From a virus, in the IMG/VR virus record IMGVR_UViG_3300035179_000352, positions 1 to 21,110 of that record: 21,110 nt of DNA. The stretch is one strand, 5' to 3'. The position numbers and the translations under genes were made by a program. Below, piece after piece: positions 1 through 21,110 of this stretch. The notes beneath the pieces were generated by a model, which made no database searches, was not told the DNA's origin, and saw only the letters and a program-made list of their open reading frames with translations. Every line of letters begins with the position of its first letter. The stretch's first letter is position 1.

Positions 1-705
1 ATACGCTTCTCCAGGACCTACAACTAAAGCATCTGTAACATTTTCATCTTTCATTACTTGTTCATAATAACCCGCTTTTGTTCCTACATTATTTCCTAGC
101 AAAACACTTTTTACTCGTAATGTTAAAGCTGAAATAGATTCTTCATCTTCTCCTGTAGTTATTGTTGCTTCATTAAAACATCCAGAGACATCTGCAACAG
201 CAGTAACTAAAACAGAAATAGCACCAGCATCAACATTAGCTTGAGATCCTCCAGCAACAGCTCTTATTGGAGCTTCTGCTTCCCACTGACCAGTATCAGG
301 GTTAAAACTTCCAGGATTTGATATAGTAACAGTTTGTAATGTAACAAATTGTTGAGCACCAACTTCTGCTCCAGGTTTAGTACTTATTGTAGTTCCTGCT
401 GGAATAGTTGCAGTAGTTCCAGATCTATTATAAAAAGTTACTGTTCCTGTTGCCCGAACTGCGGCTTTTCTTTCCAGTTGTAAATTCTCTGCTAATTTTA
501 CTAAATCATCTGTAGAAGCTAAATCTGGAGATTGAGCTTTCGAAATTACATCCAATTCAGCATAAAAATTATCTAATTCATTTGCAACCGGATTAATTAT
601 AACATCTCTTGTAAAAGTTCCTTCTTTCGTGTCCACACTTGGATGTAGCCTTTTCAAAAAGTTAATCATACTTTGAACAATATTTGAAAAACTCTTTCTC
701 GCCAT
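1..705 (-). CDS. Baseplate J-like protein, 5' part (3' end outside window)
   Basis: The first 235 codons are visible and remain open to the window edge, so the gene is 3'-truncated here only by the window. It starts with ATG (MARKSFSNIVQSM) 7 bases after an AAAGGAG site. The order of motifs fits the Baseplate_J family (T4 gp6, P2 gpJ, Mu gp47): an early 'GTFTRDVIINPVANELDNFY' segment, then 'RKAAVRATGTVTFYN', an 'IPAGTTISTKPGAEVG' strand followed by 'QQFVT', then 'AVAGGSQANVDAGAIS' and 'GEDEESISALTLRVK'. In that family the protein forms the wedge ring of the baseplate that triggers sheath contraction. It lies 12 bases after the gp25-like gene, the usual neighbour of J. The family call is strong; the C-terminal domains cannot be seen. 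Confidence 0.9.
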   Translation of the reverse strand, partial: MARKSFSNIVQSMINFLKRLHPSVDTKEGTFTRDVIINPVANELDNFYAELDVISKAQSPDLASTDDLVKLAENLQLERKAAVRATGTVTFYNRSGTTATIPAGTTISTKPGAEVGAQQFVTLQTVTISNPGSFNPDTGQWEAEAPIRAVAGGSQANVDAGAISVLVTAVADVSGCFNEATITTGEDEESISALTLRVKSVLLGNNVGTKAGYYEQVMKDENVTDALVVGPGEAY

Positions 706-717
706 AAATTTCTCCTT

Positions 718-1629
718 TTATAAAGAAACACTGCCTTGTAATATTGCCATAGATCCTTCAACATTTGTTATTCTTACTTTAAAACCTAATTGCCTTGGAT
801 CTCCTTCAATTTCATAAATTTCAATATTTTCTATTTTATCAATTAATTCTTTTAAAGAAAATTTATATCCTCTCTCAATACCATCACGTTGTAAATAACG
901 TAATCTTAAAACAGCATCCATAATAGACTGTTTTAATTTAGTCTCTCGAAATCCTTCAGTTTGTAATGCTCCTACACTATTAATAACATAAGATCCATAA
1001 TCTGCATAAAATGGATTATCACCTTTAGAAGTTATTGTAATTTTTACTAATTCTTGCAAAAGTTTTTCTACTTCACTAACAGTAAGAACATCGCCCAAAG
1101 GACTAAATTTTATATCATAATAAAAACCTTTTCCTAAACATCTTGGACAAGTATTTAAAGTAAATTTTCCGCTTGGTAAATTGTGATCACAAATATGCTC
1201 TAATTTAACATCATACAATACTAATTTTGTTTCATCTTTAGTTTTTAAACTAAAATTTGAAACAACTTTTGAAATTTTTGCAAACGAAAAAGAATCTGGC
1301 GATGTTGCTGGAATAATTTTTGCATCTGATAAAATAATCTGTTGTCTTATATAAAAAACAGAGGCATCAGATATAATCGTTTGTTGCAAGGTACTTATAA
1401 TATTAGCATTTGATATAATTAATTGTTGAACTCCTGTTTTAATATTAGCATCAGATAAAATAATTTGCTGAATATTTTCAACTAAAATATTAGTATCAGA
1501 TATAATTAATTGTTGAATCGTTACTTTTATATTTGCATCTGAAGTAATTAATTCTTGCCGTGTTTGAGGAACAAATTCATATGCACCTATATCATATCCA
1601 CATATTTGTATTGGTCTAACATGAATCAT
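718..1629 (-). CDS. gp25-like baseplate wedge protein with N-terminal 15-residue repeats
   Basis: 303 residues, ATG start with AGAGGAT upstream. Residues 1-19 end in 'GYDIGAYEF', a sequence typical of the end of right-handed beta-helix proteins. Residues 24-105 hold six copies of a 14-15 residue repeat (QQxIISDANI type) matching the large fibre gene at the right of the window. After a linker (IPATSPDSFSF, 106-116) comes a probable zinc knuckle C147-x-H149-x11-C161-x2-C164 followed by GKGFYYD. The last ~120 residues resemble the gp25/GPW family: a helix, then 'NPFYADYGSYVINSVGA' and further helices and strands. This domain is paralogous to the C-terminus of the gene at 2627-4246. In T4, gp25 joins baseplate wedge to sheath. 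The gp25 assignment rests on motif pattern and on the neighbouring baseplate J gene; the role of the repeats is unknown. Confidence 0.72.
   Translation of the reverse strand: MIHVRPIQICGYDIGAYEFVPQTRQELITSDANIKVTIQQLIISDTNILVENIQQIILSDANIKTGVQQLIISNANIISTLQQTIISDASVFYIRQQIILSDAKIIPATSPDSFSFAKISKVVSNFSLKTKDETKLVLYDVKLEHICDHNLPSGKFTLNTCPRCLGKGFYYDIKFSPLGDVLTVSEVEKLLQELVKITITSKGDNPFYADYGSYVINSVGALQTEGFRETKLKQSIMDAVLRLRYLQRDGIERGYKFSLKELIDKIENIEIYEIEGDPRQLGFKVRITNVEGSMAILQGSVSL
1312..1560 (-). repeat. Six in-frame copies of the QQxIxSDANI repeat inside the wedge gene
   Basis: Six coding units of 42-45 bases encode LITSDANI, QQLIISDTNI, QQIILSDANI, QQLIISNANI, QQTIISDASV and QQIILSDAKI with 4-5 variable residues between them. 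The same protein and DNA consensus (agatataattaattgttga and close variants on the plus strand) fills 19586-21110. Relative to the paralogue at 2627-4246 the block sits exactly between the 'YDIGxxE' end of the beta-helix and the 'IPxSSxDxFSF' linker. Confidence 0.9.
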
Positions 1630-1640
1630 ATTATATCCTC

Positions 1641-2630
1641 TTACAAAGGTCGTGTATTACCATCATGATCGGTGTATATTCCAACATCTGTAGCAGTGCT
1701 TATACAAGGAGAAGATCCTAATAAATGATAATCTGAATTCGAAACGTCAAAAAATTTTGGATCTCCTTCTTTTCCATTAGCTTCCTTCCCATTTAAAGAA
1801 CCAGAGCCCGCCTGAAATACTGTTAAATTATCAAATTCACAATCTCCTGCTTCAAGCCAAACATCCACATTAATAAATTGCCCATCAGTATATTGATAAA
1901 AATTATAATCTATATGAAATTTATTATTCCAATCAGATACATATTGAGGATAATATATAATCAAATAGAGGGCCGCTGATCCTACAACTTCAACAAAAAT
2001 ATTGTTTTTAATGTAAACATCAAAAAGTGCATGATTAGGAGAATACACCCTTAAACATTGAGCATTACTGAGAGGATCCTCATTCGTTCCACAAACTGTA
2101 TTATAATAAAAATATGCTGTCTCGTTATTCAGCATATAAAATGATACGGTAGGAAGGGTAGCAATTTTGGCTTTTCCAAAAATATTATTATAAATCTGTA
2201 TCTGATCACATCCAGAAGTAGCTCCAAAACGAGTGCCGTATTGAGTATCACAATTTCTTATAATTACATACGTTCCACATACATCTATATCAAATAAAGA
2301 ATATGTATTACTCATACTAAAACCATCTACAGTGATGTAATTTTTATTAAAACTCACATTTTTTATGCTAATTTCTCCTGAATCTCCAGTATAAATTCCA
2401 AATCTATCAGCAATATATTCTATTCTACTTCCAGAAATTCCATTATTTACAGGTTGAATTCCTCTTTCTATATCAGTTGCTTCAAGATAATAAGATCCGG
2501 AGCCCACATATACAGTATCCCCCGCATCCATATTAAGATTTGCATTTCTTAAAGTTTTCCAGGCGCCACTTCCACTCAGTCCATTATTATAATCATCTCC
2601 CATTGATCGACGAATGTAATAAGTAGTCAT
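1641..2630 (-). CDS. Right-handed beta-helix protein (stand-alone), tail adhesin-like
   Basis: 329 residues. The ATG at 2630 overlaps the stop of the preceding gene by four bases (ATGA), with AAAGGTG upstream. The N-terminus, 'TYYIRRSMGDDYNNGLSGSG' then 'AWKTLRNA', has the DUF1565/right-handed beta-helix opening: YYV strand, GxDxNxG turn, AW+Tl helix, then 'GDTVYVGSGSYY'. Short Asn-rich strands follow ('NNIFGKA', 'NNIFVEV', 'DYNFYQY'), and the end reads 'SPCISTATDVGIYTDHDGNT' RPL. Such folds in phages are host-receptor binding or polysaccharide-degrading modules; no catalytic residues can be recognised. The protein stops just where relatives continue with '(G)xxYDIGAxEF'. That missing tail appears at the start of the next gene (718-1629) in another frame, so this gene and the next look like the two halves of a split fusion. 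Confidence 0.8.
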   Translation of the reverse strand: MTTYYIRRSMGDDYNNGLSGSGAWKTLRNANLNMDAGDTVYVGSGSYYLEATDIERGIQPVNNGISGSRIEYIADRFGIYTGDSGEISIKNVSFNKNYITVDGFSMSNTYSLFDIDVCGTYVIIRNCDTQYGTRFGATSGCDQIQIYNNIFGKAKIATLPTVSFYMLNNETAYFYYNTVCGTNEDPLSNAQCLRVYSPNHALFDVYIKNNIFVEVVGSAALYLIIYYPQYVSDWNNKFHIDYNFYQYTDGQFINVDVWLEAGDCEFDNLTVFQAGSGSLNGKEANGKEGDPKFFDVSNSDYHLLGSSPCISTATDVGIYTDHDGNTRPL

Positions 2631-4246
2631 ACTAACACCTTTCCAGTAATCTCTATTTCTTTTCCTTCAACTGTAAGAATGTAAATTGCAAAGTTTAACT
2701 CAGTAGCAGAAAGTTCTGTAATTTCAACTTTTTCGACACTATCAATTAATTCTCTAGGAGAAAAATACCCATCTCCAACACCTTTGTTTGCTTCTCTTTT
2801 CTGGTACTTCATCAAATTAAAAATTGCATTCAAAATATCTGATTTTATAATTGGTTTCAAATCATCTATAGGAACTTGACCTACTCTTTTTTTAAGATTT
2901 GCTCCATACTCAGGATGAAAAGGATTAAAATCTGTTATTGTAACCTTTTCTAATTCTTGGGCCAACTTTGTTTCATCCCATACTTGAGGAACTAATCCTC
3001 CTGCGTCAAATTGAATATCATAATAAAAGCCAGTTCCTAAACATCTTGGGCAGGTATTTAAAGTAAATTGATCTCTATTTGGTAAATAATGAGTACAAGG
3101 CCATTTTAATTGAGGTTCCCTATAAGGAGTTACCCGTATTAAAACTGGACCTCTACTTATTCTAGGAGATACTTCAAATGAAAAAGTATCAAAAGAAGAC
3201 GAAGGTATAAAATAATATTCATCACATCCAATATCATAATCAAAACCTAAAGGTCTAAAATCTTCATCAATATCTTCAGATACTCCTAAATTAACGCCAA
3301 TATCAATACATGGAGAATTTTTTGTTAAATGATATTCATCTACTTCTAATAATGGATCACTTACAAATGAATTTGGATCAGAAATAATTGAAAACTCTGG
3401 TATAATCAAAGATGCAGTTGTTTGCCACTCTCCAAAATTAAAATAATTATGTTCGGTTGGACCAATAATAGGATGTAAATAAAAATCCATAAAAGAACCA
3501 CTACTACCCCCTATATAGTAACAATTATGATCAAAATTAAATATATGACTTCCATTTTCATAAGCATCTACATAATATATTTTACCAGAAAGAGATGCTT
3601 GATAACCAATATTATTTTTAACAATAAAATGACACATAGGAGTCGAATATCCATAAAGTTCTACAAGAGGACCAACCCAATGAGATTCACCAATACCTTT
3701 TGGAATGCCTACAAAAGTATTATGATAAATATAAAGATGTGGACTTGCCCCACAAGCAAGACAACCTCTATGAGCAAGAGAAGTTCTCATAGGCCACACT
3801 ACATTATTTTGAAAAACAAATCCAGAACCAGAAGAACCTATTCCAATAGCATAACACCCATAATCTAAAATACATTTTTCTATTCTAACATCTTCCACTT
3901 CCCCAACATCAACACTTGCATTATAATCGCCAAATGAAGTATAAGATAAACAATGAAATCCTTTTACTGTAATACCAAAATGTTCTTCACTTCCATGATG
4001 AGCTCTTATATAAGTAATTTGAGGATGTCCCACATCTCCAGTTTTTAATCCTCGAATATCTCCAATAAATGTTCTTCTATCTAATCCTGTTAAATCAAGG
4101 GCTTCTCCATAATTACCTGCTCCTATATACACAGTATCAAAATCAGTTGTATTTGCTATTGCATATGCAATAGTTCTCCATGCAGTTATTGGAGTTAATC
4201 CATCATTCGCGTCATTCCCACTTATTCGAACATAATAATCAACCAT
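2627..4246 (-). CDS. Beta-helix / gp25-like wedge fusion protein
   Basis: 539 residues, ATG with AGAGGAT upstream. Residues 1 to about 345 are a right-handed beta-helix of the DUF1565 kind, from 'YYVRISGNDANDGLTPITAW' through 'DFDTVYIGAGNYGE' and many NN-x-h turns to 'SPCIDIGVNLG' and 'YDIGCDEY'. A linker 'IPSSSFDTFSF' leads to a zinc-knuckle-like motif C384-x-H386-x12-C399-x2-C402 with GTGFYYD after it. The remaining ~135 residues are a gp25-like domain ('KLAQELEKVTITDFNPFHPE', 'YGANLKKRVG'). The C-terminal ~160 residues are clearly paralogous to 718-1629. Inference: the gp25 domain anchors the protein in the baseplate and the beta-helix points outward as a receptor-binding module. T4 gp25 carries no such fusion. 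Confidence 0.75.
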   Translation of the reverse strand: MVDYYVRISGNDANDGLTPITAWRTIAYAIANTTDFDTVYIGAGNYGEALDLTGLDRRTFIGDIRGLKTGDVGHPQITYIRAHHGSEEHFGITVKGFHCLSYTSFGDYNASVDVGEVEDVRIEKCILDYGCYAIGIGSSGSGFVFQNNVVWPMRTSLAHRGCLACGASPHLYIYHNTFVGIPKGIGESHWVGPLVELYGYSTPMCHFIVKNNIGYQASLSGKIYYVDAYENGSHIFNFDHNCYYIGGSSGSFMDFYLHPIIGPTEHNYFNFGEWQTTASLIIPEFSIISDPNSFVSDPLLEVDEYHLTKNSPCIDIGVNLGVSEDIDEDFRPLGFDYDIGCDEYYFIPSSSFDTFSFEVSPRISRGPVLIRVTPYREPQLKWPCTHYLPNRDQFTLNTCPRCLGTGFYYDIQFDAGGLVPQVWDETKLAQELEKVTITDFNPFHPEYGANLKKRVGQVPIDDLKPIIKSDILNAIFNLMKYQKREANKGVGDGYFSPRELIDSVEKVEITELSATELNFAIYILTVEGKEIEITGKVLV

Positions 4247-4256
4247 ATTAATCCTC

Positions 4257-4775
4257 TTACATCACATTCAATAATTCTAGCCATTTGTCAATTAAACTAA
4301 GCCTTGCATTCAATTGGTCCTTAGCTCTTGTAGAAATATTAAGAGCAGCATTGGCGCTGTTCAACCGGTAATGTATTTCACTTAAAATATCCTCTACATC
4401 TTCGAAGCCTTCAATTCTTAATCCAGAAACTCCAGCTCCTTTAATCATACTCTGCAATAAATTTTGAAGCTCAGGACAATTTTGTACTATATCTCCGAAA
4501 TGTGTTACATTAATTATATTTTTTACTGCCCCTAATTTATTACTAACTGCAACAAACAAATTATTGAATTTTTCTGAAAGCATATTATTTCTTTGAATCT
4601 GAAAAGCCAATTTATTTACTTTTAGTTCTAATAAACTTCTTTGTTGTTGTAAAAATAATTTTAAAGCGCTTCGGACAGGATAAGATAAAGATAAAATTGC
4701 TGTAAGGAAACAAACTGAGAAACCTGTTTTCTCATGCAGTTCATCAATAAGTTCCTGTGTTATATTACTAACCAT
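4257..4775 (-). CDS. Small helical structural protein, unrecognised
   Basis: 172 residues, ATG seven bases after AAGGAG; the SD overlaps the TAA of the previous gene (TAAGGAG). The protein looks almost wholly helical, with heptad-like stretches at about 36-85 ('ALKLFLQQQRSLLELKVNKL', 'NNMLSEKFNNLFVAVSNKL') and 130-168. There is no signal peptide, and the only mildly hydrophobic part is 'VCFLTAILSLSYPV' near residue 20-35. I do not recognise a family. Its place between the spike gene and the gp25-like wedge suggests a baseplate component or assembly factor, by context only. Confidence 0.7.
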   Translation of the reverse strand: MVSNITQELIDELHEKTGFSVCFLTAILSLSYPVRSALKLFLQQQRSLLELKVNKLAFQIQRNNMLSEKFNNLFVAVSNKLGAVKNIINVTHFGDIVQNCPELQNLLQSMIKGAGVSGLRIEGFEDVEDILSEIHYRLNSANAALNISTRAKDQLNARLSLIDKWLELLNVM

Positions 4776-4784
4776 TTTTTCTCC

Positions 4785-5879
4785 TTATTCCACTTTAACT
4801 TTTGTAGAAATTTCTCCAGTAGATGGAGTAGTAGGAGCACTAGTTGCTCCTCCAGGTGCTGGATGCGTGTGTTGATTGTATGTAGTTATAAAATCCGAAA
4901 GAACCACAGCCTTTTCATTCCCCCCACCCCCCAACAATATATCATCAGCCACAATTTTTAATTTTTTATCATTTGCAAGTGACATGGAAACATTCCCTTC
5001 CTTGTCTACTGTAAATTCAAATCCTATAGTGCTTTTAGTTCTTATTTGAATACATATCTCTTTTCCAGATTCTGCATGGTTGTCAGTGGTTTCTTCCGGC
5101 GAATATACAGTATTTAACCCAGAACCAGTCCTTTTAATTTTCGTTCCTAGAATAACTTCAACAAATGGATTATCTACTTCAGGTTCTGTAGTAGGATCTA
5201 CATCTGCTGTTTCCAAAACTCTTAATCTAAATTCTGTAAATGCCTTACCTCCATTTAAAATAGAAGTATTATTTCTTGTAACTAAAACCATTTCTGAATT
5301 CTGAGAAGGATCTGGATATGTAGGCATTTCTCTTTTTACCAAACCAAAATCAAGAACTCCAGCTTCAGTAGTACATTGGTAAGTCATACTATTTTGATGA
5401 ATTATATTATCAGTAGGATCTAATTCCCACCAATCTCCAGTACCATCTCGAAAAACAATTTTCCCAGAATTTGACATATAAATTTCAGATCCTGTAGGAA
5501 TAGGGATAGGAAATTGTTGTTTTTGATCCGTTTCAAAACCAGAATAACTTCTCCAAAGTTTTTCTCCAGGTTGTAATTGTTTAGCCTCTCCTGCTTGAAC
5601 TTGTTTAGCATATCCTATAGGCATGTATCTATCAATTTCAGGAATATCTCCTTCTCTCATTGCAACAAGTATAACTGCTCCTGGAGTTGGAAAATCAAAA
5701 GAACCAAATGCTGCTTGACTTATAACTACATTATCTCTTCCACTTGGATGATCTAACCATTTAATAGCAACAGTCCCTTTTTCAGCATTTACACTTGTTA
5801 TAACTGCAAGACGATGATATGGAGTTCTAGATAGTAAATGTCCACCAAAAGGTCTCTCATTTGGAAAGTATCTCCTCAT
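4785..5879 (-). CDS. Baseplate spike / puncturing protein, gpV-gp5-like
   Basis: 364 residues. The ATG overlaps the hub gene stop by four bases (ATGA), and a GGGGGAGGGG purine tract just upstream serves as SD. Residues ~22-95 look like the OB-fold of gp5/gpV/VgrG proteins: 'HRLAVITSVNAEKGTVAIKW', then 'VVISQAAFGSFDFPTPGAVI' and 'REGDIPEIDRYMPIGYA'. The middle region ('GSEIYMSNSGKIVFRDGTGD') and 'IGFEFTVDKEGNVSMSLAND' have the short repetitive strands of spike beta-helices, ending in 'KLKIVADDILLGG'. Near the C-terminus, H337-T-H339-P followed by GGATSAPTTP matches a motif common in phage spike and baseplate proteins. The protein would sit at the tip of the tube on the hub. No lysozyme domain is present. 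Confidence 0.82.
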   Translation of the reverse strand: MRRYFPNERPFGGHLLSRTPYHRLAVITSVNAEKGTVAIKWLDHPSGRDNVVISQAAFGSFDFPTPGAVILVAMREGDIPEIDRYMPIGYAKQVQAGEAKQLQPGEKLWRSYSGFETDQKQQFPIPIPTGSEIYMSNSGKIVFRDGTGDWWELDPTDNIIHQNSMTYQCTTEAGVLDFGLVKREMPTYPDPSQNSEMVLVTRNNTSILNGGKAFTEFRLRVLETADVDPTTEPEVDNPFVEVILGTKIKRTGSGLNTVYSPEETTDNHAESGKEICIQIRTKSTIGFEFTVDKEGNVSMSLANDKKLKIVADDILLGGGGNEKAVVLSDFITTYNQHTHPAPGGATSAPTTPSTGEISTKVKVE

Positions 5880-8257
5880 GACTTAACCCCTCCCCCTCTT
5901 ATAGTTAACTTTGCTTTAGTATAAGGTTCTGGATCTACAAAACCTGTTTCTCCTCGAACCATACAATATCTTAAAGGATCTTTTCCTTCTACATAACCTA
6001 TAGGTTGATATGTAGAAATTTCATCTCCTACAGAAACATTAAGTGAAACCAATCCATAATAATGTGTTTCGTATTGGCCACCTTTAGATCTTATTTTCAC
6101 AAAATCCACATCACTTTCTATAACAATTCCATTATGAGTTGCATATACTTCAGCTTGTTTTACTTTTAAAGTTGGATTTGTTAATTTTAAAGAGCTTAAA
6201 TCTATTCCGTTAGGTAATTGTTCATTTTCTCCCGAACTATTAACTCTATATCTTGTTTGCCCTGGATAAGAAGTCTCAACTTTATTATTATTGGAAGCAC
6301 CAAAAGGCCAAATAAGAGGATCATCTTTACTACTTTTTGAAGTAACTGCTGCATGAACAGCTGTTGATTCCATAGTAACATTTCTTCTTCCAACTTCTCC
6401 ATCAGTAGCAGAATATCGAGTATACGCTAAAGTTTCTGGAAGACGTTCCCAAGGCTTTCTTCCATAAGTTAATCCTAAAGTTGTAGTAAATGTTTCACCA
6501 AAAGCAAAATTATGAGTTATTGAATGAACATAATATATCATATTACGAAAAGGTATATATACTGGCATTGCCATTCTTATTTCAGGTCTTCCAACTATTG
6601 TAATAGTTCCAGTTCTTCTTTCCGCAAATGTTCTAAAAAGTAATGATTGTGCATAATAATAACAATCAGCAGCAGTTCTTACAAATGGATGACTTACCGT
6701 AAGCATTCTTCTACCATATTTAAAAATAAGTCCAGAATCCTCATAAAAATTTACATAATTAAAAGGATATTGGACTCCTTCAATCATATCCATCTGCCCT
6801 ACAACTAAAATAGAAGTAATTAAAGATTCATCACTTTCGGTATTCCCCCAACTAAGAATATCTTCATTTCTCAAAATATAAACTTCCGGTATATCTTCAG
6901 TAAGTATATGTCTATTATCAAATCTTGGTTGATGATACCAAATATCTCCATTAGCATCAGCATAAAATTCAAAATTAGATGTTTTTGCTATTTCATAAAT
7001 AATTTCTAAATGAGTTCTATATTCATTATCATAACTATCATAAGTAGTTCTAGCAAATCTTTTATAAGGAGTCTTTTGTAATTCTCCCATATCAGAATAT
7101 TCTTGCTTTTCCATAGGAATTTGAATATGTATTCTTGATTTCTGAAACAACTTATCCAAATCAGATACATCTTCACTTACAACAATTCCTTCTTTAGTAT
7201 TTTCAAAAGTAAGAGGACTAAGAATAGGAGTTTTTCCTCTAACTGAAGTAAAAAGTAAAGAAGACTCAGGACTTAACATAGGATTAAATTCAAATTCGCC
7301 AACTCCCCTCACTTTTAAACCATCTGCATCAATTCCCCCTAAAACTAAAAGTTTAATAATCTGCCAAGGTTCCATACCAGTAAAACGCTTCGACCACATT
7401 CTCATAGTATCAGCACCAGCATCTGGAAGACCTTCAGTAAGAGTTGAAGGATTTACATTAGCATAAGTCATTTTTAACCATTTAGTAACATCTTCTCCAG
7501 AAATTGTTATTTTTGAAAAATTTTCAGAGTATTCATCACTAATTGAATTTACAATTCCAGTAAAAGCAACAATATATTCATAAGGAATGCTTTCATTATA
7601 AAATCTTCGAGAAAATAAAACTACAACCCGATCCATAGGACTAAAAACACATCTTCCCTGATCCACCATTCCTTCATATTTTTCATAAAAATCTAAATTT
7701 GGACGAGAGTCTTTAACAACAGAGTCAAGATCCGTTCCTGTTAACTCAACAAAAGTATCAACACTTTCTAATTGTTCTTTTGCATGTTCTTCTAACCATT
7801 CTTTATTTTGAGCTTTTTTCCAATAACCTATAAGGCCATCTTTTTTATTTTGGTATCTTTCTAAAATACAAACATCTCCATTAGGTAAAAGAAAAAATCT
7901 TTTAAACTCTTCATGATTTAACCATTCTAAAGCATTTTTATAAGGATATGAAGATTTTAATGAAACTGATTTTTTTCCATATGTATCTAAAGGAGGATCA
8001 TTTAAATTTCTAACTTCAAAATTAATATCATCTTTTATAAAATATCTGTCATTTTTATTATTTAAAGTAATACTAAATGTTCCGGGTTGAGAAGTAATAT
8101 TTAAAGTGGTATTAATACTAATAATATCACTTATATCAGGAGCGACAATTTTTTTAGCCTCTCTTAACTTTCCTGAACCAGTCCACTTCTCATCTAAAAA
8201 ATAAACAAGAGCTTTTGGAAAATAATGATTAATTCTATGTTTAGTTTCGTCAATCAC
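5876..8257 (-). CDS. Baseplate hub protein (gp27/gpD-like) with degenerate M23 domain
   Basis: 793 residues from GTG at 8257. I prefer this start because AAGGAG lies nine bases before it and it gives a tight GTGATTGA overlap with the preceding gene; a TTG at 8278 would add seven residues but has no SD. The N-terminus ('FSITLNNKNDRYF', 'PMDRVVVLFSRRFYNESIPY', 'FTGIVNSISDEYSENFSKIT' 'ISGEDVTKWLK') is the pattern of late-control-D/gp27 hub proteins, as is 'FEFYADANGDIWYHQPRF' further on. Residues ~646-785 are a LytM/M23-like beta domain, recognisable by 'GIDLS', 'GIVIES', 'SLNVSVGDEISTYQPIGYVE' and 'VRGETGFVDPEPY'. Its metal-binding histidines are missing (H-x3-D is P-x3-D, HxH is L-x-Y), so it is probably structural rather than catalytic. 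The spike gene follows directly, as expected for a hub. Confidence 0.82.
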   Translation of the reverse strand: MIDETKHRINHYFPKALVYFLDEKWTGSGKLREAKKIVAPDISDIISINTTLNITSQPGTFSITLNNKNDRYFIKDDINFEVRNLNDPPLDTYGKKSVSLKSSYPYKNALEWLNHEEFKRFFLLPNGDVCILERYQNKKDGLIGYWKKAQNKEWLEEHAKEQLESVDTFVELTGTDLDSVVKDSRPNLDFYEKYEGMVDQGRCVFSPMDRVVVLFSRRFYNESIPYEYIVAFTGIVNSISDEYSENFSKITISGEDVTKWLKMTYANVNPSTLTEGLPDAGADTMRMWSKRFTGMEPWQIIKLLVLGGIDADGLKVRGVGEFEFNPMLSPESSLLFTSVRGKTPILSPLTFENTKEGIVVSEDVSDLDKLFQKSRIHIQIPMEKQEYSDMGELQKTPYKRFARTTYDSYDNEYRTHLEIIYEIAKTSNFEFYADANGDIWYHQPRFDNRHILTEDIPEVYILRNEDILSWGNTESDESLITSILVVGQMDMIEGVQYPFNYVNFYEDSGLIFKYGRRMLTVSHPFVRTAADCYYYAQSLLFRTFAERRTGTITIVGRPEIRMAMPVYIPFRNMIYYVHSITHNFAFGETFTTTLGLTYGRKPWERLPETLAYTRYSATDGEVGRRNVTMESTAVHAAVTSKSSKDDPLIWPFGASNNNKVETSYPGQTRYRVNSSGENEQLPNGIDLSSLKLTNPTLKVKQAEVYATHNGIVIESDVDFVKIRSKGGQYETHYYGLVSLNVSVGDEISTYQPIGYVEGKDPLRYCMVRGETGFVDPEPYTKAKLTIRGGGVKS

Positions 8258-9086
8258 TCTTTCTCTCTCCTTCTGCAAGTTGACGTAAATATTTTAAAGT
8301 ATCCGCGTTACGAACAAGTGTTTGCTGAATTTCTTGCTGAGCTCTACTAACAGAAGTTGCTTCATATTCTACTGCAAATTCTACAGTATATTCAAACTGA
8401 AAAGGTTTTTCTCCAACTTCTTCATATACAAAATTTCTCAAATGTCCTACAAAAATATTCCCTCTATATTCTAATCCTAACATTTTCATATTGCCAAGTT
8501 CTTGTTGCATTTGATCTTCATCATACAATATCTCAAAATCTTTAAATATTCTATAAGCTTCTGAATTATCTTCTGAAGGATTTGGAATATCAGTCATTGA
8601 TTTAGCATTTTCTGGAGGCTCTGGTGTTACATTTCCAGTTGTTCCTCCAAATGCTATAATAGATATATCTGGTCCCCAATGTTGAAATTCAAAACCACCT
8701 CTAGTTCTTATTTTAGTAATCAATTTACTTTTAGTAATATGAAGATTACGTGGATTTATATGAAAACTAAATGTTGCAGTAGCTCCAGTATTTTCTTCTT
8801 TCTCTTTTCCCATCACATTAAATCGTTCACTATTTCTTATAATAAAAGGAGTATTTTTTTCATCAACATCTCTATAAACTCTGTAAACCATGCCAGCATC
8901 TACTTTTTTAGTTAAATCAGTATCATCATTAATTTTTTCCATTGATCCTTCAATAATATATTCTGCTCCTCTTGGAAACAATGGATTACTCAAAGTTGCT
9001 ACATTTATATATCCAGAAACCGTAGCTCCTTTTTCTTCTTTTGCTTTATTTAATTTCCATATTCTTATAACTTCTCTTTTACCCAT
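8250..9086 (-). CDS. Baseplate hub / tube-initiator-like protein
   Basis: 278 residues, ATG ten bases after AAAAGGA. The core, about residues 105-152, reads 'FSFHINPRNLHITKSKLITK' followed by 'TRGGFEFQHWGPDISIIAFG' and GTTG. This NP...T+GG....WG.....aFGG.TG arrangement is one I associate with baseplate proteins lying between the tape measure and the hub in contractile-tailed phages. Later, 'RIFKDFEILYDEDQMQQELG' and 'LGLEYRGNIFVGHLRNFVYE' then 'PFQFEYTVEFAVEYE' continue the same tube-like pattern. No LysM domain could be picked out. The inferred role is a tube-proximal baseplate ring on which tube polymerisation starts. The last bases form the SD of the hub gene. Confidence 0.65.
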   Translation of the reverse strand: MGKREVIRIWKLNKAKEEKGATVSGYINVATLSNPLFPRGAEYIIEGSMEKINDDTDLTKKVDAGMVYRVYRDVDEKNTPFIIRNSERFNVMGKEKEENTGATATFSFHINPRNLHITKSKLITKIRTRGGFEFQHWGPDISIIAFGGTTGNVTPEPPENAKSMTDIPNPSEDNSEAYRIFKDFEILYDEDQMQQELGNMKMLGLEYRGNIFVGHLRNFVYEEVGEKPFQFEYTVEFAVEYEATSVSRAQQEIQQTLVRNADTLKYLRQLAEGERKSD

Positions 9087-9104: not shown

Positions 9105-11072
9105 TTATTTAGGATGTGTTAAATCTCCTATTTTAGGAGGTTCTCCTAAAGGTATTATTAATTTTTGAGGTTTCAATATTATTGTAATTTCATTCTGTGT
9201 TTTTTGTACTTCCATTCCAAGTTCTGTTTGAACCATTTTTGCAATTCCTTGTGCGGCTCCAGGTCCTGCGGTTGCTTTATATTTCTCATATTGAGTTTTA
9301 GTAAGATCTTTTATATGTGCTAATTCTACATAAAGTTGCCGAGGATCATCAACCCAAGGACCATATTCTTTTAAAGCTTTTATAGCAAGTTCACCTTTCC
9401 CAGCTTCAGATAAAGCTTGAGCTTTCATCATTCCATATAAAACTTTAGCTGTTCCTGAAAGAGTTTTTTCTTGAGTTAATGCTGTTTCTTTTTCTTCTGA
9501 TTTAGCTTTTAAAAATTTGAAACCCTCAATAACAGTTTTTGTAACTAAAACAAGATCAACAAAGGCTCCTGTTACTACAGCTATTTGAGGGACAAATCGG
9601 GCCATGCCTAATGTTAATCCCGCGACACCGGCACCGCCGGCACCTCCTGCAATACCTCCACCAAAACCTACACCTCTTAAAGCTAATGCAGTCATTATTG
9701 CTCCTGGAGCAGCTCCTAAAACAGCACCTCCAATACCTCCAGCAGCACCAGCAACACCCCCTAATCCTTGAGACCTTAAATAATCCATAAATTGCAAGAA
9801 AGGATAATACCACTCTCTCATACCTTTAGTACTTGTTTCCATTGTTTTTTCTAATTCTTTAATAGCATTAGTAAGTTCTACAGTAGGATCTTTTAAATCT
9901 TTAATTGATTCTGCAAAAACTGGACCACCTTTTTCTAATGCTGGGCCTATTCGTTGTTGAAATGCCATAGCTTCAAATCCAGGCCAAAATTGTGCAAAAG
10001 CTACCGCTTGTATTGCTTTAGGAAACATTTTCAAAGTCTCTCTTCCAGCAACTGCAAAAACTTGACCATAAATTTCTGGGGCCACATTTTGTAAAACATC
10101 TGCCTGATAAGCAATTCCTATATTTCTATATTTAGCAGTATCTCCATATCTTTGTCTAGTTTCCGTTTCTAATGATTCTTTAATATTAGAAGGAACGTCT
10201 CCCCAAGCCCTGCCCAACATCATTGCCATTTTTACTCTAAAACCAAAGCCTCCTCCAGTCATTTGAGATTGGGCTAATGCCTGCATAGTTTGTTGCGCTT
10301 CTCTTGCAGTTATAGTTCCTTTCTTTAAATCATCAGTAAATAAATTTGTAAATGCCATTGCATCACGAATTGAAAAACCATATTGTTGTATTTGAGAAGT
10401 CAATCCAAAAACAGTATTTTTATAAAGTTCTAAAGGAACTCCAGCAGCAGCAGCATTCAAAGCCATTGTTTCATAAGAATCAGCAATGTTATCTATTGAC
10501 ATTCCTAGTTGTTCGTGCATAGTAACAAAATCTTTTGGAAAAGATTTACTTATACCTAAAGAGTATTTAACAAAAAGAGGAAGCATTTGATTAATTTCTT
10601 GTTCTGACCACATCCTCTGTTCAGTTAATGCTTTCATAATTTCTTCAGCAGATGCCCTTGCTGCCTTGCCCCCCATTCCAGAAGCCGTAGAAAGTTGTTC
10701 ATAATATTTAGTAATTGATACAACACCTATTCCAAGAGCTCTATTTAATTCAGCTTGCTTCTTTTCAAGCATATCCATTTCATGCAACATTACTGCCATA
10801 CCACCAACTGCTAAACCTAATCTTGTAGTAAATAAATGTAATTGTTGAGCATTTTCAAAAATAAGAGGTCCAAGTCTTGCACTCTCTTTATTCATTATTC
10901 CAAGCTGATTTAAAAAGTTGGTAATATGACCACCAGCATAAGACCAACCAAAGAGTCTAAATAAAGCTTCGAAAGAATTTGTTAATGTAGTAACACCCAC
11001 AGCAGCTTCTTTTCCACCAGGCCCTAACTTACCTAATTGTTCTGACATTCCAGCTAATTCTTCACCAACCAT
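9105..11072 (-). CDS. Tail tape measure protein
   Basis: 655 residues, ATG five bases after AAAGGAG. It is long, mostly helical and rich in Ala, Gly, Met and Gln, as tape measure proteins are. A Gly/Ala-rich hydrophobic stretch at about residues 431-505 ('GLGGVAGAAGGIGGAVLGAA', 'GVGFGGGIAGGAGGAGVAGL') resembles the membrane-interacting segments of this class. It lies after the chaperone genes and before the hub genes, the standard position. If the usual ratio of about 0.15 nm of tail per residue holds, the tail would be near 100 nm, short for a large myophage. No peptidoglycan hydrolase motif is visible. The assignment rests on composition, length and position rather than on a specific motif. 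Confidence 0.78.
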   Translation of the reverse strand: MVGEELAGMSEQLGKLGPGGKEAAVGVTTLTNSFEALFRLFGWSYAGGHITNFLNQLGIMNKESARLGPLIFENAQQLHLFTTRLGLAVGGMAVMLHEMDMLEKKQAELNRALGIGVVSITKYYEQLSTASGMGGKAARASAEEIMKALTEQRMWSEQEINQMLPLFVKYSLGISKSFPKDFVTMHEQLGMSIDNIADSYETMALNAAAAGVPLELYKNTVFGLTSQIQQYGFSIRDAMAFTNLFTDDLKKGTITAREAQQTMQALAQSQMTGGGFGFRVKMAMMLGRAWGDVPSNIKESLETETRQRYGDTAKYRNIGIAYQADVLQNVAPEIYGQVFAVAGRETLKMFPKAIQAVAFAQFWPGFEAMAFQQRIGPALEKGGPVFAESIKDLKDPTVELTNAIKELEKTMETSTKGMREWYYPFLQFMDYLRSQGLGGVAGAAGGIGGAVLGAAPGAIMTALALRGVGFGGGIAGGAGGAGVAGLTLGMARFVPQIAVVTGAFVDLVLVTKTVIEGFKFLKAKSEEKETALTQEKTLSGTAKVLYGMMKAQALSEAGKGELAIKALKEYGPWVDDPRQLYVELAHIKDLTKTQYEKYKATAGPGAAQGIAKMVQTELGMEVQKTQNEITIILKPQKLIIPLGEPPKIGDLTHPK

Positions 11073-11171: not shown

Positions 11172-11441
11172 TTAAATAACTATTTCAAACTTATATCCTT
11201 TGTCATTAAACATCGTAATCTTTTTAGATTTATTTCTTTTAATAATATTACTACAAGAAGACCAATAAATATTATTTTGTAATTTTTCTTTAGGTTCATC
11301 CTTCTTCTTTGAACACATTCCCCATAATATAAGAAAAGCTAATCCAACAGGAGTTACTGCAACTGCTACAAAAAGTATAATAAAAAGAATTGCAAAAAAC
11401 CCTGTTAATACTTTATCTACTTTATTTAAAAAGTTTGACAT
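11172..11441 (-). CDS. Small membrane protein, unrecognised
   Basis: 89 residues from the ATG at 11441, which lies seven bases after AAAAGGAG. An ATG six codons upstream would place the SD inside the gene and is unlikely to be the start. After a short N-terminus (MSNFLNKVDKVLTG) a strongly hydrophobic stretch of about 25-28 residues ('FFAILFIILFVAVAVTPVGL', then AFLILWG) makes one long or two short membrane passes, with a Pro-containing kink. A charged tail rich in Lys follows (CSKKKDEPKEK). It lies between the second chaperone-like gene and the tape measure, and a candidate promoter and a terminator bracket it. A holin-like or envelope-modifying role is possible but nothing specific shows it. 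Confidence 0.65.
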   Translation of the reverse strand: MSNFLNKVDKVLTGFFAILFIILFVAVAVTPVGLAFLILWGMCSKKKDEPKEKLQNNIYWSSCSNIIKRNKSKKITMFNDKGYKFEIVI

Positions 11442-11466
11442 TTTATTGCTCCTTTTCATCTAATAT

Positions 11467-11496
11467 ATTATACACAAAATTTAGAAAGAAGAGCAA
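11467..11496 (-). promoter_or_regulatory. Candidate sigma70-type promoter for the small membrane protein gene
   Basis: On the minus strand TTGCTC (11491-11496) and a perfect TATAAT (11467-11472) are separated by 18 bases, in the gap after the 211-residue gene stops at 11502. The ATG at 11441 follows about 25 bases downstream of the -10 box. In A+T-rich DNA a TATAAT can occur by chance, but the pairing with a -35-like box in an intergenic gap, with a terminator hairpin downstream of the gene, makes this the best promoter candidate in the window. Confidence 0.5.
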
Positions 11497-11501
11497 ATTT
11501 T

Positions 11502-12137
11502 TTACATATAATTCATCTCAACACTATCCCCGTCATCCTGACTTTCAAGATATTCTTGAGTCTTTTCATCAAATAAAACATTTTCTCGGGTGCTTTCTTC
11601 TGATTGTTTTACTCGGTCATATAATTCTTTATCTAACCAAGGCTGTAACATTTCAAAAACATTTTTAATTAATTCAACTATGTATTTATTCTTATCCTTA
11701 TCACTTTTTACTGAATTATAAAAAATCCACAATAGTTGAGCATTATTATATTTCGAAGAATTTAAAACTTTATCAATTCCAGAACTTTTAGATACTTCCC
11801 ATAAAAACTTAGATTGAACATCATTCTCTACAATATCCTCAACTATTTTATTTAAACCTTTAATCCAATCATTATAAACCTTAGTATACTTTTCAAATAT
11901 TGTATTAACTACAAAAAAATTCAAAGATTTTAAAAAGGCCTCTTTTTCTTCTTCAGATTTATTTGGAATAATCAAAACAGAAGCCAAAAGCTTAACACAT
12001 TCCTCCAAAGTCTGAGGAAAAGGTTTTTCATCAATTCTTAAAGTTAAAGACCAATCAACTTTTTTAAAAGGTTTAATTGTTATTACAGGTAATATATTTT
12101 CAAAAATAGCATTTTTTACTTGCTCTTTACTAAACAT
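11502..12137 (-). CDS. Probable second tail assembly chaperone
   Basis: 211 residues, ATG six bases after GGAG, which itself directly follows the T8 of a terminator hairpin. The protein is helical and charged (rich in Lys, Glu, Asp), with 'FPQTLEECVKLLASVLIIP' and 'VSKSSGIDKVLNSSKYNNAQ', and an acidic tail (SQDDGDSVEM). No family motif is certain. Two small genes between tube and tape measure are typically the tail assembly chaperones that hold the tape measure before tube growth. The frame of this gene is -1 relative to the gene upstream, as in classical chaperone pairs, but no usable slippery site joins them. Confidence 0.55.
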   Translation of the reverse strand: MFSKEQVKNAIFENILPVITIKPFKKVDWSLTLRIDEKPFPQTLEECVKLLASVLIIPNKSEEEKEAFLKSLNFFVVNTIFEKYTKVYNDWIKGLNKIVEDIVENDVQSKFLWEVSKSSGIDKVLNSSKYNNAQLLWIFYNSVKSDKDKNKYIVELIKNVFEMLQPWLDKELYDRVKQSEESTRENVLFDEKTQEYLESQDDGDSVEMNYM

Positions 12138-12146
12138 AAATTCTCC

Positions 12147-12180
12147 AAAAAAAAGCGAGCAGTTTTCTATTTCTGCTCGC
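12147..12180 (-). terminator. Intrinsic terminator-like hairpin with the upstream gene's stop in its loop
   Basis: On the minus strand GCGAGCAG (12173-12180) pairs perfectly with CTGCTCGC (12155-12162) across a 10-base loop, followed by T8 (12147-12154). The TAG stop of the 187-residue gene (12167-12169) lies in the loop, and the GGAG of the next gene begins immediately after the T tract. A ribosome reaching the stop codon would unfold the stem, so termination could depend on translation of the upstream gene. Confidence 0.85.
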
Positions 12181-12730: not shown

Positions 12731-12758
12731 TTTTCCTCCTTTACTTTAATAAACTAAA

Positions 12759-14287: not shown

Positions 14288-14307
14288 TTTAGCCCTTACA
14301 ATTAAAA

Positions 14308-18563: not shown

Positions 18564-18584
18564 CAAAATCTCACTTTTTAAATA

Positions 18585-19373
18585 TTACTGACTGCCTGCA
18601 AATTTGCTACAACCCCTGAGGGCTCGACTGAGCGATCGAGGAAAACCAACTGTGCTGCTAAACAATCCTCTCATACCCACGTGATTAAATGCATACATCT
18701 GTTTTACTTTTCTTATTCTCTCTTGATATGCTGAAGCTAAAGATGAATAAATTGATAAATATTTTCCGGATCTATCTCTGGTAATACTTATACCGTTATC
18801 ACTATATGCAAAATGCTTTCCAGCTTCTAATATTTCCATACCAATTAAAGCATGAATGATTGCCCCCATTTCAATTTCTCTATAATAAACAGTAGGAAGA
18901 GTTTTAAAACTAAACGCTGTTACCAAAGGAGGCTCGGCATTAAACCAATCCAATCCATTTTGTAGAAAATCTAACATTTCTCTATCACTTAAATATTTAT
19001 TTCTATATCCCCCGGCATCTAAATGCATATATAATTTAGATCGCATTGCATCTAATAAAGCGCCTTCAACAATAGCTTCTGATGGATCTTTTAATTTACA
19101 AATATTAGGAACATCTTGAGTAGTATATACTCCATTAATCCATCCAGACCACCATGCACCATAATATCCATAATCCCAACTTGCATTAGGAGTTATTGGA
19201 TAGTAATATATTCCTGTAGAATCATGAATACCTACTCCTGAAGCAATTTTTAAGGTTCCGTCTTGATACATAATCTTTACAGTTACGGACCCAGAGGCAT
19301 CTATTAAATTAAAATTATTATCTTTAAATTCTGCCCAAAGTCTTTCTGCTTGACCTCTAAATATAAATTGCAT
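18585..19373 (-). CDS. Head-tail connector-like protein with N-terminal beta-sandwich
   Basis: 262 residues, ATG seven bases after AAAGGA. The first ~95 residues look like an Ig-like or BppU-like beta-sandwich: 'GQAERLWAEFKDNNFNLIDA', 'VTVKIMYQDGTLKIASGVGI' and 'STGIYYYPITPNASWDYGYY' then 'GAWWSGWING'. Residues ~100-235 are helical: 'SEAIVEGALLDAMRSKLYMH', 'DREMLDFLQNGLDWFN', 'EMGAIIHALIGMEILEAGKH', ending in 'YQERIRKVKQMYAFNHVGMR'. That half resembles gp6-like adaptor or neck proteins. The start of the neck gene cluster is a fitting place for such a protein. Family assignment is tentative; the beta-sandwich is probably an exposed decoration. Confidence 0.55.
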   Translation of the reverse strand: MQFIFRGQAERLWAEFKDNNFNLIDASGSVTVKIMYQDGTLKIASGVGIHDSTGIYYYPITPNASWDYGYYGAWWSGWINGVYTTQDVPNICKLKDPSEAIVEGALLDAMRSKLYMHLDAGGYRNKYLSDREMLDFLQNGLDWFNAEPPLVTAFSFKTLPTVYYREIEMGAIIHALIGMEILEAGKHFAYSDNGISITRDRSGKYLSIYSSLASAYQERIRKVKQMYAFNHVGMRGLFSSTVGFPRSLSRALRGCSKFAGSQ

Positions 19374-19383
19374 GAATTATCCT

Positions 19384-21110
19384 TTAATTTATATTTTGAT
19401 TTTTCTTACCATCTGTCGAATCAATGTATCCTTCATTTTCTTTTGTTTGTATATAATTTTCATCACCTAACGTAGACTGAATATTTCCTTCTTCTTTTCC
19501 TGACTGAATAGAACCTTCTTCACCTCTTGTAGATTGAATAAAAGGTTTTTCTCCTTTGCTATCAATCTGTCCTTGACCTTTACCTCCTATAAAAGCATTT
19601 GAAGTTATAACTTGTTGAATTCTTCCAACAATAATATTTGTATCAGATGTAATTAACTGTTGAAGGGTTACAAAATAAATATAAGCATCAGAAGTAATTA
19701 CTTGCTGATTATTTAAAACTTCAATATTAGCATCAGATGTAATTACTTGTTGAAGGGTTGCAAAATAAATATAAGCATCTGAAACAATTATCTGTTGATT
19801 ATTTAAAACTTTAACATTAACATCAGATATAAGTATCTGCTGGATATTTGGAATTACTACATTAGCATCAGAAACAATTATTTGCTGATTACTAGGAATT
19901 ACAACATTGGAATCAGATATAATCTGTTGTTGAACATTATATTTTAAAACATTAGCATCAGATGTAAGTATCTGTTGTTGTAAAATTATTACATTGGAAT
20001 CAGATGTAATTGTTTGTTGTTTATTAAGAATTACTACATTAGCATCTGAAGTAATTAATTGTTGTCCTAGTAATATAATATAAGCATCAGATGTAATTAT
20101 TTTTTGAGTTGTAGCAAAAATATCAGCATCAGAAGTAAGAGTCTGTTGTTTATTTAAAATTACTACATTAGTATCAGATTCTATCGTTTGCTGAATATTT
20201 AAAGTTTTAATATTAGCATCTGAAGTAATTACCTGTTGAATATTTAAAACTTTAATATCAGCATCAGATACAATAATTTGCTGCCTACTTATAGATACAA
20301 CATTACTATCAGAAGTAATTAATTGTTGTTGCTGAGGAATTATTACATTAGCATCTGAAATAATTATTTGCTGATGCTCTAAAGTTTTAACATTGGCATC
20401 TGACTCTATAGTCTGCTGCTTGTTTAAAACTTCAATATTAGCATCAGATATAAGTAGTTGCTGTTTATTTACAACTACAACATTAGTATCTGAAATAATT
20501 GTTTGTTGATGGCCTAAAGTTTTAACGTTAGAATCAGATTCTATAGTCTGCTGCTTGTTTAAAACTTCAATATTAGCATCAGATACAATTATCTTTTGTA
20601 TATTCTGTTTAAAAATATTAGCATCTGATATAATGATTTGTTGATTATCAAGAATTACTACACTAGCATCAGATTTTATTACCTGCTGTGTGTTCCTTCT
20701 TAAAATATCTGCATCAGATGTAATTAATTGACGTACAAACAATTTTGAAATACTTGCATCTGATATAATTAACTGCTGTGTGTTCCTTCTTAAAATATCT
20801 GCATCAGAAACAATTATTTGTTGTTGGTCTAAAGTCTTAACATTAGCATCAGATAATATAGTCTGCTGAATGCTTAAAGTCTTAACATTAGCATCAGATA
20901 CAATTATCTGCTGATTACTAGGAATTAAAACATTAGCATCAGATACAATTATTTGTTGATTATCAGTTTCAACTACATTAGCATCAGAAGTAATTATCTG
21001 TTGTATATTCTGTTTTAAAATATTAGTATCAGATGTAATTGTTTGTTGTTTATTAAGAACTACTACATTAGCATCTGATAATATCGTTTGCTGTTTATTA
21101 GAAATTAAAA
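19384..21110 (-). CDS. Long 15-residue-repeat fibre-like protein (5' end outside window)
   Basis: The frame is open from the window edge to the TAA at 19384-19386, giving 574 visible residues. A TTG at 20742 could be mistaken for the start, but eight more repeat units lie upstream of it in the same frame. At least 34 units of a 15-residue repeat are visible, consensus QQ-x-I-x-S-D-A-N-V-x-V-L-N-x, with I/V alternating around an almost invariant SD pair and a nearly invariant QQ. The C-terminal ~65 residues change to a different, charged repeat of 9-10 residues (IQSTRGEEGS, IQSGKEEGN, IQSTLGDENY, IQTKENEGY, IDSTDGKKNQ). There is no signal peptide or membrane segment. Strand-turn repeats of this length could form a beta-solenoid or a trimeric beta-spiral shaft. 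A virion fibre is inferred; no known family is recognised. Confidence 0.75.
   Translation of the reverse strand, partial: LISNKQQTILSDANVVVLNKQQTITSDTNILKQNIQQIITSDANVVETDNQQIIVSDANVLIPSNQQIIVSDANVKTLSIQQTILSDANVKTLDQQQIIVSDADILRRNTQQLIISDASISKLFVRQLITSDADILRRNTQQVIKSDASVVILDNQQIIISDANIFKQNIQKIIVSDANIEVLNKQQTIESDSNVKTLGHQQTIISDTNVVVVNKQQLLISDANIEVLNKQQTIESDANVKTLEHQQIIISDANVIIPQQQQLITSDSNVVSISRQQIIVSDADIKVLNIQQVITSDANIKTLNIQQTIESDTNVVILNKQQTLTSDADIFATTQKIITSDAYIILLGQQLITSDANVVILNKQQTITSDSNVIILQQQILTSDANVLKYNVQQQIISDSNVVIPSNQQIIVSDANVVIPNIQQILISDVNVKVLNNQQIIVSDAYIYFATLQQVITSDANIEVLNNQQVITSDAYIYFVTLQQLITSDTNIIVGRIQQVITSNAFIGGKGQGQIDSKGEKPFIQSTRGEEGSIQSGKEEGNIQSTLGDENYIQTKENEGYIDSTDGKKNQNIN
19586..21110 (-). 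repeat. Tandem array of about 45-bp coding repeats
   Basis: Around 34 in-frame units, nearly all 45 bp with a few of 42 bp, share the plus-strand core ttagcatcagatrtaatta followed by a ttgttg tract. Units are not identical, but multi-unit blocks are: a 46-bp identity at 20405-20450 and 20540-20585 (135 bp apart, three units) and a 36-bp identity at 20683-20718 and 20773-20808 (90 bp apart, two units). A near-identical two-unit block lies around 19650-19810. The array continues beyond the window edge. Confidence 0.93.

Follow-up and report, generated by a model that had tools for sequence, protein, structure and literature searches.

An array of short, probably beta-rich repeats at the border of a gp25-like domain appears to be an old feature of a viral baseplate-type gene

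Results

Gene A and its surroundings

The window, that is, the whole stretch of DNA analysed here, is itself a virus record of 21,110 bases. On the minus strand, its genes follow in the order big repeat gene, connector-like gene, HNH-like gene, further genes, tail sheath gene, tail and baseplate genes, paralogue B, a beta-helix-like open reading frame (ORF), gene A and a baseplate J-like gene. Gene A (718-1629) starts with a 23-residue remnant of the C-terminal end of a beta-helix (MIHV...DIGAYEFVPQT, 1561..1629), continues with an array of six repeat units (1312..1560, spaced by 14, 15, 14, 14 and 14 residues), a putative stalk or linker, and ends with a gp25-like (sheath-initiator-like) domain containing a conserved CxH...CPRC motif (718..1311). 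The J-like gene (1..705; PF04865 Baseplate_J, E 7.2e-19) is located directly downstream of A; on the other side lies a separate beta-helix-like ORF (1641..2630) that matches the N-terminal module fused to A in a relative (contig L005 of source G002), followed by paralogue B (2627..4246), in which a beta-helix-like part and a gp25-like domain are fused and units are lacking. The tail sheath gene (14308-15678; phrog_2839, E 2.7e-36), the HNH-like gene (17679-18566) and a conserved head-tail connector-like gene (18585..19373; phrog_17327, E 0.0048), which is 78-82% identical in three relatives, lead to the adjoining big repeat gene (19384..21108), with 34 units in the window and its 5′ end cut by the window edge.

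The match between the two arrays, which had been noted from the sequence alone, holds. TRF, run independently, called an array at 1364-1557 (period 42, score 147), and the big gene, used as a query against its own record, matched positions 1306-1575 (E 5.7e-19), so that, given this match and the unprompted TRF call, the likeness of the six units at 1312-1560 to the 34 units at 19384-21108 is not a chance one. The insertion point relative to the paralogue was also correctly placed: in the window's B, YDIGCDEYYF runs into IPSSSFDTFSF without units, whereas in A the units lie between YDIGAYEF and IPATSPDSFSF.

In G002, A and the beta-helix form one ORF (L005 4856-6652), whereas in the window the beta-helix part stops and A restarts in another frame; thus, the window's A corresponds to the C-terminal part of the relative's single ORF. 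A starts 11 nt past the stop of the beta-helix ORF, with a purine-rich AGAGG before the ATG (window 1629-1660), and the same split is present in G001. An 'RP' motif occurs near the junction in both ORFs.

The label "gp25-like", as used in the sequence-only reading, is weakly supported. Five A genes match Pfam Sheath_initiator (PF10934) with 18-28 bits, all below the cut-off of 32.9 (window A: 19 bits, E 0.0015); the gp25-like domain of the window's A matches phrog_43, baseplate wedge subunit (E 4.5e-4), and is 38% identical over 113 aa to gp187 of Bacillus phage G. A Foldseek search with the model of the L005 A protein, which is mostly at pLDDT <55 in this part, returned, at E 0.14, a chain of the T4 baseplate with 126 residues (5iv5_BD) and, at E 0.86-0.94, T4 gp25 itself (5iw9). 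Besides these weak profile and fold matches, A resembles T4 gp25 in its gene neighbourhood, being located directly before the J-like gene (1-705); it differs in that there are two paralogues here, most with a large N-terminal module, T4 gp25 being given as 15.1 kDa in one account (PMC3004832). By eye, phage G gp188, which follows gp187, resembles a gp6/J-like baseplate gene. Zinc-ribbon-type cysteine motifs (CxH...CPRC) are found in both gp25-like domains (718-1311 and 2627-3120), and another, CECVD...CEICYGAG, in a protein matching phrog_1004 (virion structural; 16814-17692).

Sequence and predicted fold of the unit

The unit common to the A array and the big gene is 14-15 residues long and has the form QQ-x-I-x-S-D-A-N-V/I. 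The consensus, taken over the 144 units that have exactly 15 residues, reads Q (0.96), Q (0.85), [TIL], I (0.85), [VLT], S (0.98), D (0.82) or N (0.17), A (0.69), N (0.80), [VI] (1.00); the residues that follow vary, with K, E, V, I and T frequent and mostly N, D or S at the end, before one last variable residue. Counting the six commonest residues at each position of these units, Gly (at most 2%) and Pro (7% at one position) are both nearly absent. Spacing is 14 residues in 12 of 16 gaps of the A arrays, and in the big genes 15 residues in 134 and 14 in 43 of 181 gaps. In 7 of 11 arrays, D is replaced by N in the final unit, a change seen in 40 of 207 inner units (Fisher p = 0.0024), suggesting that array ends are special. 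The scored numbers of units depend on the pattern, a stricter one giving slightly different counts.

AlphaFold2 predicted a strand-turn-strand arrangement for each of eight units (single chain, 30 aligned rows), in a model of poor quality (mean pLDDT 57.5, pTM 0.44) for which Foldseek found no PDB match at E 0.001. No family scored above the cut-off in Pfam searches with five big genes, the window's big-gene part and a third repeat gene, or in NCBIfam searches with the G001 big gene and the third repeat gene. Among the literature matches listed, judged by title and abstract opening, no description of a 14-15-residue unit of this kind was found. The unit is a private repeat without a family name, and as such an unnamed target for structural work.

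Distribution of the unit

In IMG/VR, a profile scan and a pattern scan agreed on six contigs with the unit, not counting the record of the window itself; a scan of genomes added two contigs, both with phage structural genes, from a single Cloacimonadota MAG. The sources are denoted G001 (168 kb), G002 (= L005), G003, G004, G005, G006 and, for the MAG, G007. Within the set of 124 genomes of that phylum, units occur in this genome only, and the gp25-like profile matches one other genome (E 7.9e-4); the G007 contigs may be mis-binned, and the Cloacimonadota host is provisional. In the collections scanned, the unit is present in one group of related viral contigs only. G001 is 81-98% identical to the window in aligned blocks, and over 1098 nt the part of the big gene in G003 does not differ from the G001 sequence.

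At the orthologous site of A, units are present in all five distinct orthologues: six in the window and G001, the arrays of which are identical, six in G002, five in G007, three in G005 and one, degenerate, in G004. At the corresponding site of B, none of the six genes compared (window, G001, G002, G004, G005, G007) has a unit; one unit is found at the extreme N-terminus of G001 B (L004 6283-8994), and the window's B is without it. An IMG/VR search with a gp25-domain profile and a baseplate protein yielded no new A gene among the matches listed; contig L091, a distant relative, ends before the region.

The big repeat gene and other genes with units

The big gene of G001 encodes 956 aa with 58 scored units, and the number of units ranges from 15 to 58 among the big genes. 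All five share a start motif, WD-x3-WDD-x1or2-RIWDG, found no more than 25 residues from the N-terminus except in G004, where it lies deeper in the protein; an end motif, GxGQG, is found in four of the five, G006 being without it. The G004 gene contains a 309-nt block of seven units in 2.1 copies at 99% identity, and in the G001 gene higher-order periodicity is seen at 135 and 180 nt (74-82%), so growth by block duplication within a locus is plainly indicated by the sequences. In L091, the genes that flank the big gene elsewhere lie side by side (35% and 50% identity to those of the window) and no unit was found in the record, suggesting that the big gene is an accessory gain or has been lost there. 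The last residues encoded by L091 1679-2602 (VTTDAVTITSDAVIV) resemble, by eye, one degenerate unit, in a virus without the big gene.

Two further gene contexts in relatives include units, namely, the N-terminus of L004 6283-8994 mentioned above and a third repeat gene, L076 343-978. The latter, which precedes a capsid protease-like gene, has 11 scored units after ITRGFG-like repeats (MNLITRGFGARNSLIVRGFGG), and its units lean slightly to the G001 big gene, this being their top match for 6 of 11 by protein and 5 of 11 by DNA. The same contig encodes a Laminin_G_3 lectin-like protein (13309-14067, E 2.9e-16) and a fibre-like protein (11260-13296); lying between the capsid genes and the big gene, these could mark the spot as a hot spot of surface proteins.

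With the window's big gene, tblastn gave no match at E 1e-5 in 50,697 phage records, and a 90-residue stretch of the big gene matched phages and plasmids at E 1 to 10 only. The G005 and G007 big genes match PHROGs of unknown function strongly (phrog_923, E 5e-21; phrog_31265; phrog_15350), whereas the matches of the G001 gene are weak (best E 9e-5). In phage records, the G005 gene matches 15, chiefly from phages of Microcystis and Listeria (best E 2e-12), and the G007 gene seven (best single E 8e-10), at 21-31% identity in both cases. The three Microcystis phage matches that were read proved to be ordinary pentapeptide-repeat proteins lacking the unit; the matches from Listeria, Synechococcus and Acinetobacter and those from PHROGs are known from their scores. 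We take these matches to represent compositional likeness among beta-solenoid-like repeats and not the same unit, although the sequences leave room for a remote common origin of the unit and pentapeptide repeats.

The array as a border of the N-terminal module

Comparing the window with G002 (L005), its nearest distinct relative, in steps of 45 nt, identity is 0.91-1.00 over 720-1304, falls to 0.78 in the last unit and to 0.56-0.73 in units 1-5, and is mostly 0.2-0.6 in the beta-helix. In the comparison with G001, positions 401-1700 are identical (1.00), and the beta-helix ORF is at 0.59-0.81 (1901-2400). The B proteins of the window and G001 (539 and 903 aa) differ in both length and sequence of their N-terminal parts, whereas identity over their gp25-like parts, in steps of 100 nt, is 79-95%; G004 B, of 195 aa, has no N-terminal module.

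A beta-helix-like module precedes the array in four A genes (one modelled, L005; one, L074, by a match to PF22842 at E 0.006, below the cut-off; two by eye). In the model of the L005 protein, the one A gene modelled, 24 of 26 blocks of residues 1-260 have pLDDT 70-92, compared to mostly <55 in the repeat and gp25 part, and the predicted fold is a parallel beta-helix. The leading Foldseek matches were GH136 enzymes and a rhamnogalacturonan lyase (E 2.3e-4 to 9.2e-4), with PL6 next and the fibres of phage 7-7-1 further down (E 0.068); the lyase matches have low whole-model TM-scores (query TM 0.16-0.28, top 20). The model predicts, with fair confidence, a right-handed, polysaccharide-lyase-like beta-helix as the N-terminal module of G002 A. 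In G007, the module is F5/8C-like and not a beta-helix (PF22633, E 0.0057, below the cut-off).

These identity profiles, together with the module type in G007 and the lack of a module in G004 B, indicate that the modules of both gp25-like genes change fast and that the repeats of A lie between a changing and a constant part. On sequence comparison, the array appears as the border of the conserved gp25-like domain with an N-terminal module subject to divergence or replacement, a role on which the sequence-only reading was silent and which is added here. The fall in identity at the array may reflect fast divergence and not exchange. If exchange is involved, new N-terminal modules from other viruses could have brought the A arrays along, with the array as the stretch of homology through which modules are exchanged; we consider this possible, although we lean against it. 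Consistent with such replacement are the sharp fall at the last unit between the window and L005, the different type of module in G007 and the differing N-terminal parts of the window and G001 B proteins next to highly similar gp25-like parts. Against it, no donor was found, and the window and G001 have the whole array identical but differ in the beta-helix beyond it, so in this pair the border of change was outside the array.

Exchange of units between A and the big gene

The sequence-only reading had allowed for recombination linking the two loci, and for this part of it the evidence is suggestive in some viruses and contrary in others, with few genomes and short units to judge by. In the window, the longest exact match of A to its own big gene is 19 nt, compared to 14-17 nt with four foreign big genes (exact shared matches of 8-17 nt are not unusual), and the best 90-nt stretch is at 75.6% with its own big gene and 76.7% with that of G005, so that no tract stands out; the mean best match of the units is 0.82 with the own big gene and 0.79 with the next. 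For G007, the own big gene is the top-scoring match of the first four A units (five in all) by both protein and DNA, and the best 45-nt match to it is 91% compared to at most 82% in four foreign big genes; at 26 nt, however, the longest exact match to it barely exceeds the 24 nt shared with the big gene of G001.

When 15 units were sampled from each of five big genes (33 nt per unit; G002 was left out and G006 used as a foreign big gene only), the own big gene was the best mean match for two of four arrays by protein (G001 and G007) and three of four by DNA (with single-unit G004 added), and the top match for 6 of 15 units by protein and 8 of 15 by DNA. None of the three A units of G005 prefers its own big gene, and the single unit of G004 prefers a foreign one in the profile test.

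Do the units of the two loci cluster apart, as had been asked of the original observation? In unit trees, from which the single B unit was excluded, the A units are not set apart from those of their own big gene (5 changes vs. 5.8 in shuffled labels for G001, where 50 of 300 shuffles were as low; 5 vs. 4.9 for G007; 3 vs. 3.0 for G005). Taken together, the units cluster by virus (55 changes vs. 121 shuffled) and less so by locus (24 vs. 31), in trees that are poorly resolved.

Thus, clustering by virus, the mixing of A units with those of the own big gene, the G007 matches and the mean best matches are what would be expected if units were copied between A and the big gene within a lineage, by recombination or gene conversion, such that the loci co-evolve while the array site is old. 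Running counter to this are G005, the G004 unit, the near-equal exact matches in G007, the window without an outstanding tract, the 14-residue spacing kept in A, and the small size of the units, for which a virus-wide codon or residue preference could mimic the same pattern. Weak support remains for slow exchange of units between the loci or for shared drift of composition, and we regard ongoing exchange as a tentative proposition, rather unlikely as it stands. If it were shown, these loci would offer a clear example from nature of concerted evolution between virion genes that are not linked.

Age of the array in gene A

In the tree of gp25-like domains, A and B form separate groups, with support of 92/92 for B and a weaker 77/58 for A. 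As units are present in five of five A genes and none of six B genes, and A and B are apart in this tree, the array was present in A before these viruses diverged. It appears to have been inherited with A, as an old feature common to the relatives and not a fresh insert.

An alternative history in which the common ancestor of A and B had units that B then lost fits the tree as well as gain does, and the single unit in G001 B might be a trace of it, except that this unit is N-terminal, at another site. Given that neither any of the six B genes nor the sole outside relative compared, phage G gp187 (on a very long branch), has units at the site, gain in A requires fewer steps than loss in B, which makes loss improbable. 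The outcome named in the sequence-only reading as evidence for such loss, repeats at this point in all the gp25-like paralogues, was looked for and not seen in B (0 of 6). Its proposal of a block that moves as a cassette, if taken as a recent jump from the big gene into A of this virus, explains the common consensus and the clean insertion point relative to B, but is contradicted by units at the same site in five of five distinct A orthologues, by the want of any long DNA tract common to A and its own big gene (longest exact match, 19 nt) and by the different prevailing spacings, 14 in A (12/16) and 15 in the big genes (134/181); we reject a recent transfer for the window as highly improbable.

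Position-by-position orthology of the six units between the window and L005 was also rejected: with 33-nt cores, the identity of the matching order ranked 248 of 720 permutations and was not significant. In a tree of A units only, unit 5 of the window pairs with unit 5 of L005 (support 85).

Discussion

The reading that we favour, and consider somewhat probable, is that the array is an old, extendable, beta-rich stalk which joins changeable surface modules to the gp25-like domain, and that the same unit also builds a fibre-like protein. The units would fold as a beta-rich stalk; in A, a short array of 1 to 6 units would be the joint between the gp25-like domain and a changeable, presumably exposed N-terminal module, usually a polysaccharide-lyase-like beta-helix that may bind host polysaccharide. 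The conserved gp25-like domain would anchor the module in the baseplate, and domain and stalk together would place up to six surface modules around the upper baseplate. In 15 to 58 copies, the unit would form the big fibre-like protein encoded beside the connector-like gene. Within a locus, arrays would grow and shrink through the duplication of whole units; that of A was present before the known relatives diverged and has been passed on with the gene. The A, B and big-gene proteins are known here from sequence rather than from detection in virions. Counting against the stalk, the window and G001 encode the beta-helix in an ORF of its own, so that the array there follows just the 23-residue remnant; and, with one degenerate unit left in G004 A, a long stalk is not needed.

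A more speculative extension, to which we give rather little credence, is that the unit is a virus-private joint, kept alike across virion genes by exchange within the lineage, which would act both as a structural stalk and as a shared recombination border, allowing surface modules to be swapped on the sheath-initiator-like protein and fibre length to be tuned.

Several known repeats invite comparison with the unit. The shaft of the adenovirus fibre is described as built of 15-residue repeats, the number of which sets its length and varies between types (PMC7248032). The units resemble this triple beta-spiral in being hydrophobic repeats, 15 residues apart in most gaps of the big genes (134 of 181) but 14 in most of those of A (12 of 16), in a fold that is here predicted. 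A triple beta-spiral has a conserved Gly or Pro in the turn, and the units do not (Pro 7% at one position, Gly at most 2%). A trimeric spiral would also suit the big protein better than A, since six gp25 copies would fit a three-fold shaft only as two trimers.

Pentapeptide profiles come close to their cut-offs in two big genes (PF13599, Pentapeptide_4, 36.2 bits vs. 38, in G005; PF00805, 18.6 vs. 20.2, in G007) and have no match in the other three of the five; Pentapeptide_4 is the family that comes nearest to the unit. The big genes differ from such repeats in having a period of 14-15 without a raised five-residue period: lag-5 similarity is -0.8 to 0.06 in the five (near zero in G005), compared to 0.8 to 1.6 in three Microcystis phage proteins, and 14-residue units break the five-residue phase. 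This likeness bears on the fold of the unit and not on history at A, so our estimates are unchanged by it. The likeness below cut-off to pentapeptide repeats and PHROGs in two of the five genes (L077 2952-5405 and L079 1871-3724) hints at a beta-solenoid. The grass antifreeze beta roll (PF21300) is a solenoid with short coils; it matches two of five big genes weakly (E 0.041 and 0.35), at 14.4 and 11.4 bits vs. a cut-off of 30.

Among tandem repeats of phage tail-associated proteins, the BACON repeats of crAss-like phages are reported to have grown by duplication or transfer (PMC6949934), and side tail fibres of prophages are described as modular, with collagen-like short repeats and domains in varied combinations (PMC3368898). 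Here the repeat chemistry is other than collagen-like, and the partner is a gp25-like protein. BACON is a named globular domain, whereas the present unit has 14-15 residues. Ig-like domains of phage virion proteins are promiscuous, one module occurring in several unrelated virion genes; here, there is a short repeat in one virus group. The phi29 head fibre gp8.5 matches weakly by profile (PDB 3qc7, E 0.013; phrog_14753, E 0.015), but the alignment is patchy and the phi29 fibre is helical whereas the units are predicted to be beta; this homology was rejected as most likely a chance match.

Repeats and module swapping in phage fibres are already known. Less expected are the anchor, which is a gp25-like sheath initiator and not a fibre protein, and the finding that a long fibre-like gene, a baseplate-type gene and one or more others, seemingly of one virus, have a private repeat in common. 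The role is thus of a familiar kind, but the repeat that fills it has no name and its anchor is unusual.

Endonuclease-like genes are interspersed among the tail genes. In the window, they were detected by profile at 13241-14341 (Vsr/DUF559-like) and 17679-18566 (HNH-like), and in contig L006 by eye at 3906-4886, 5717-6703, 7797-8357 and 9741-10646. They partly differ between the window and its close relative G001, as expected of homing endonucleases.
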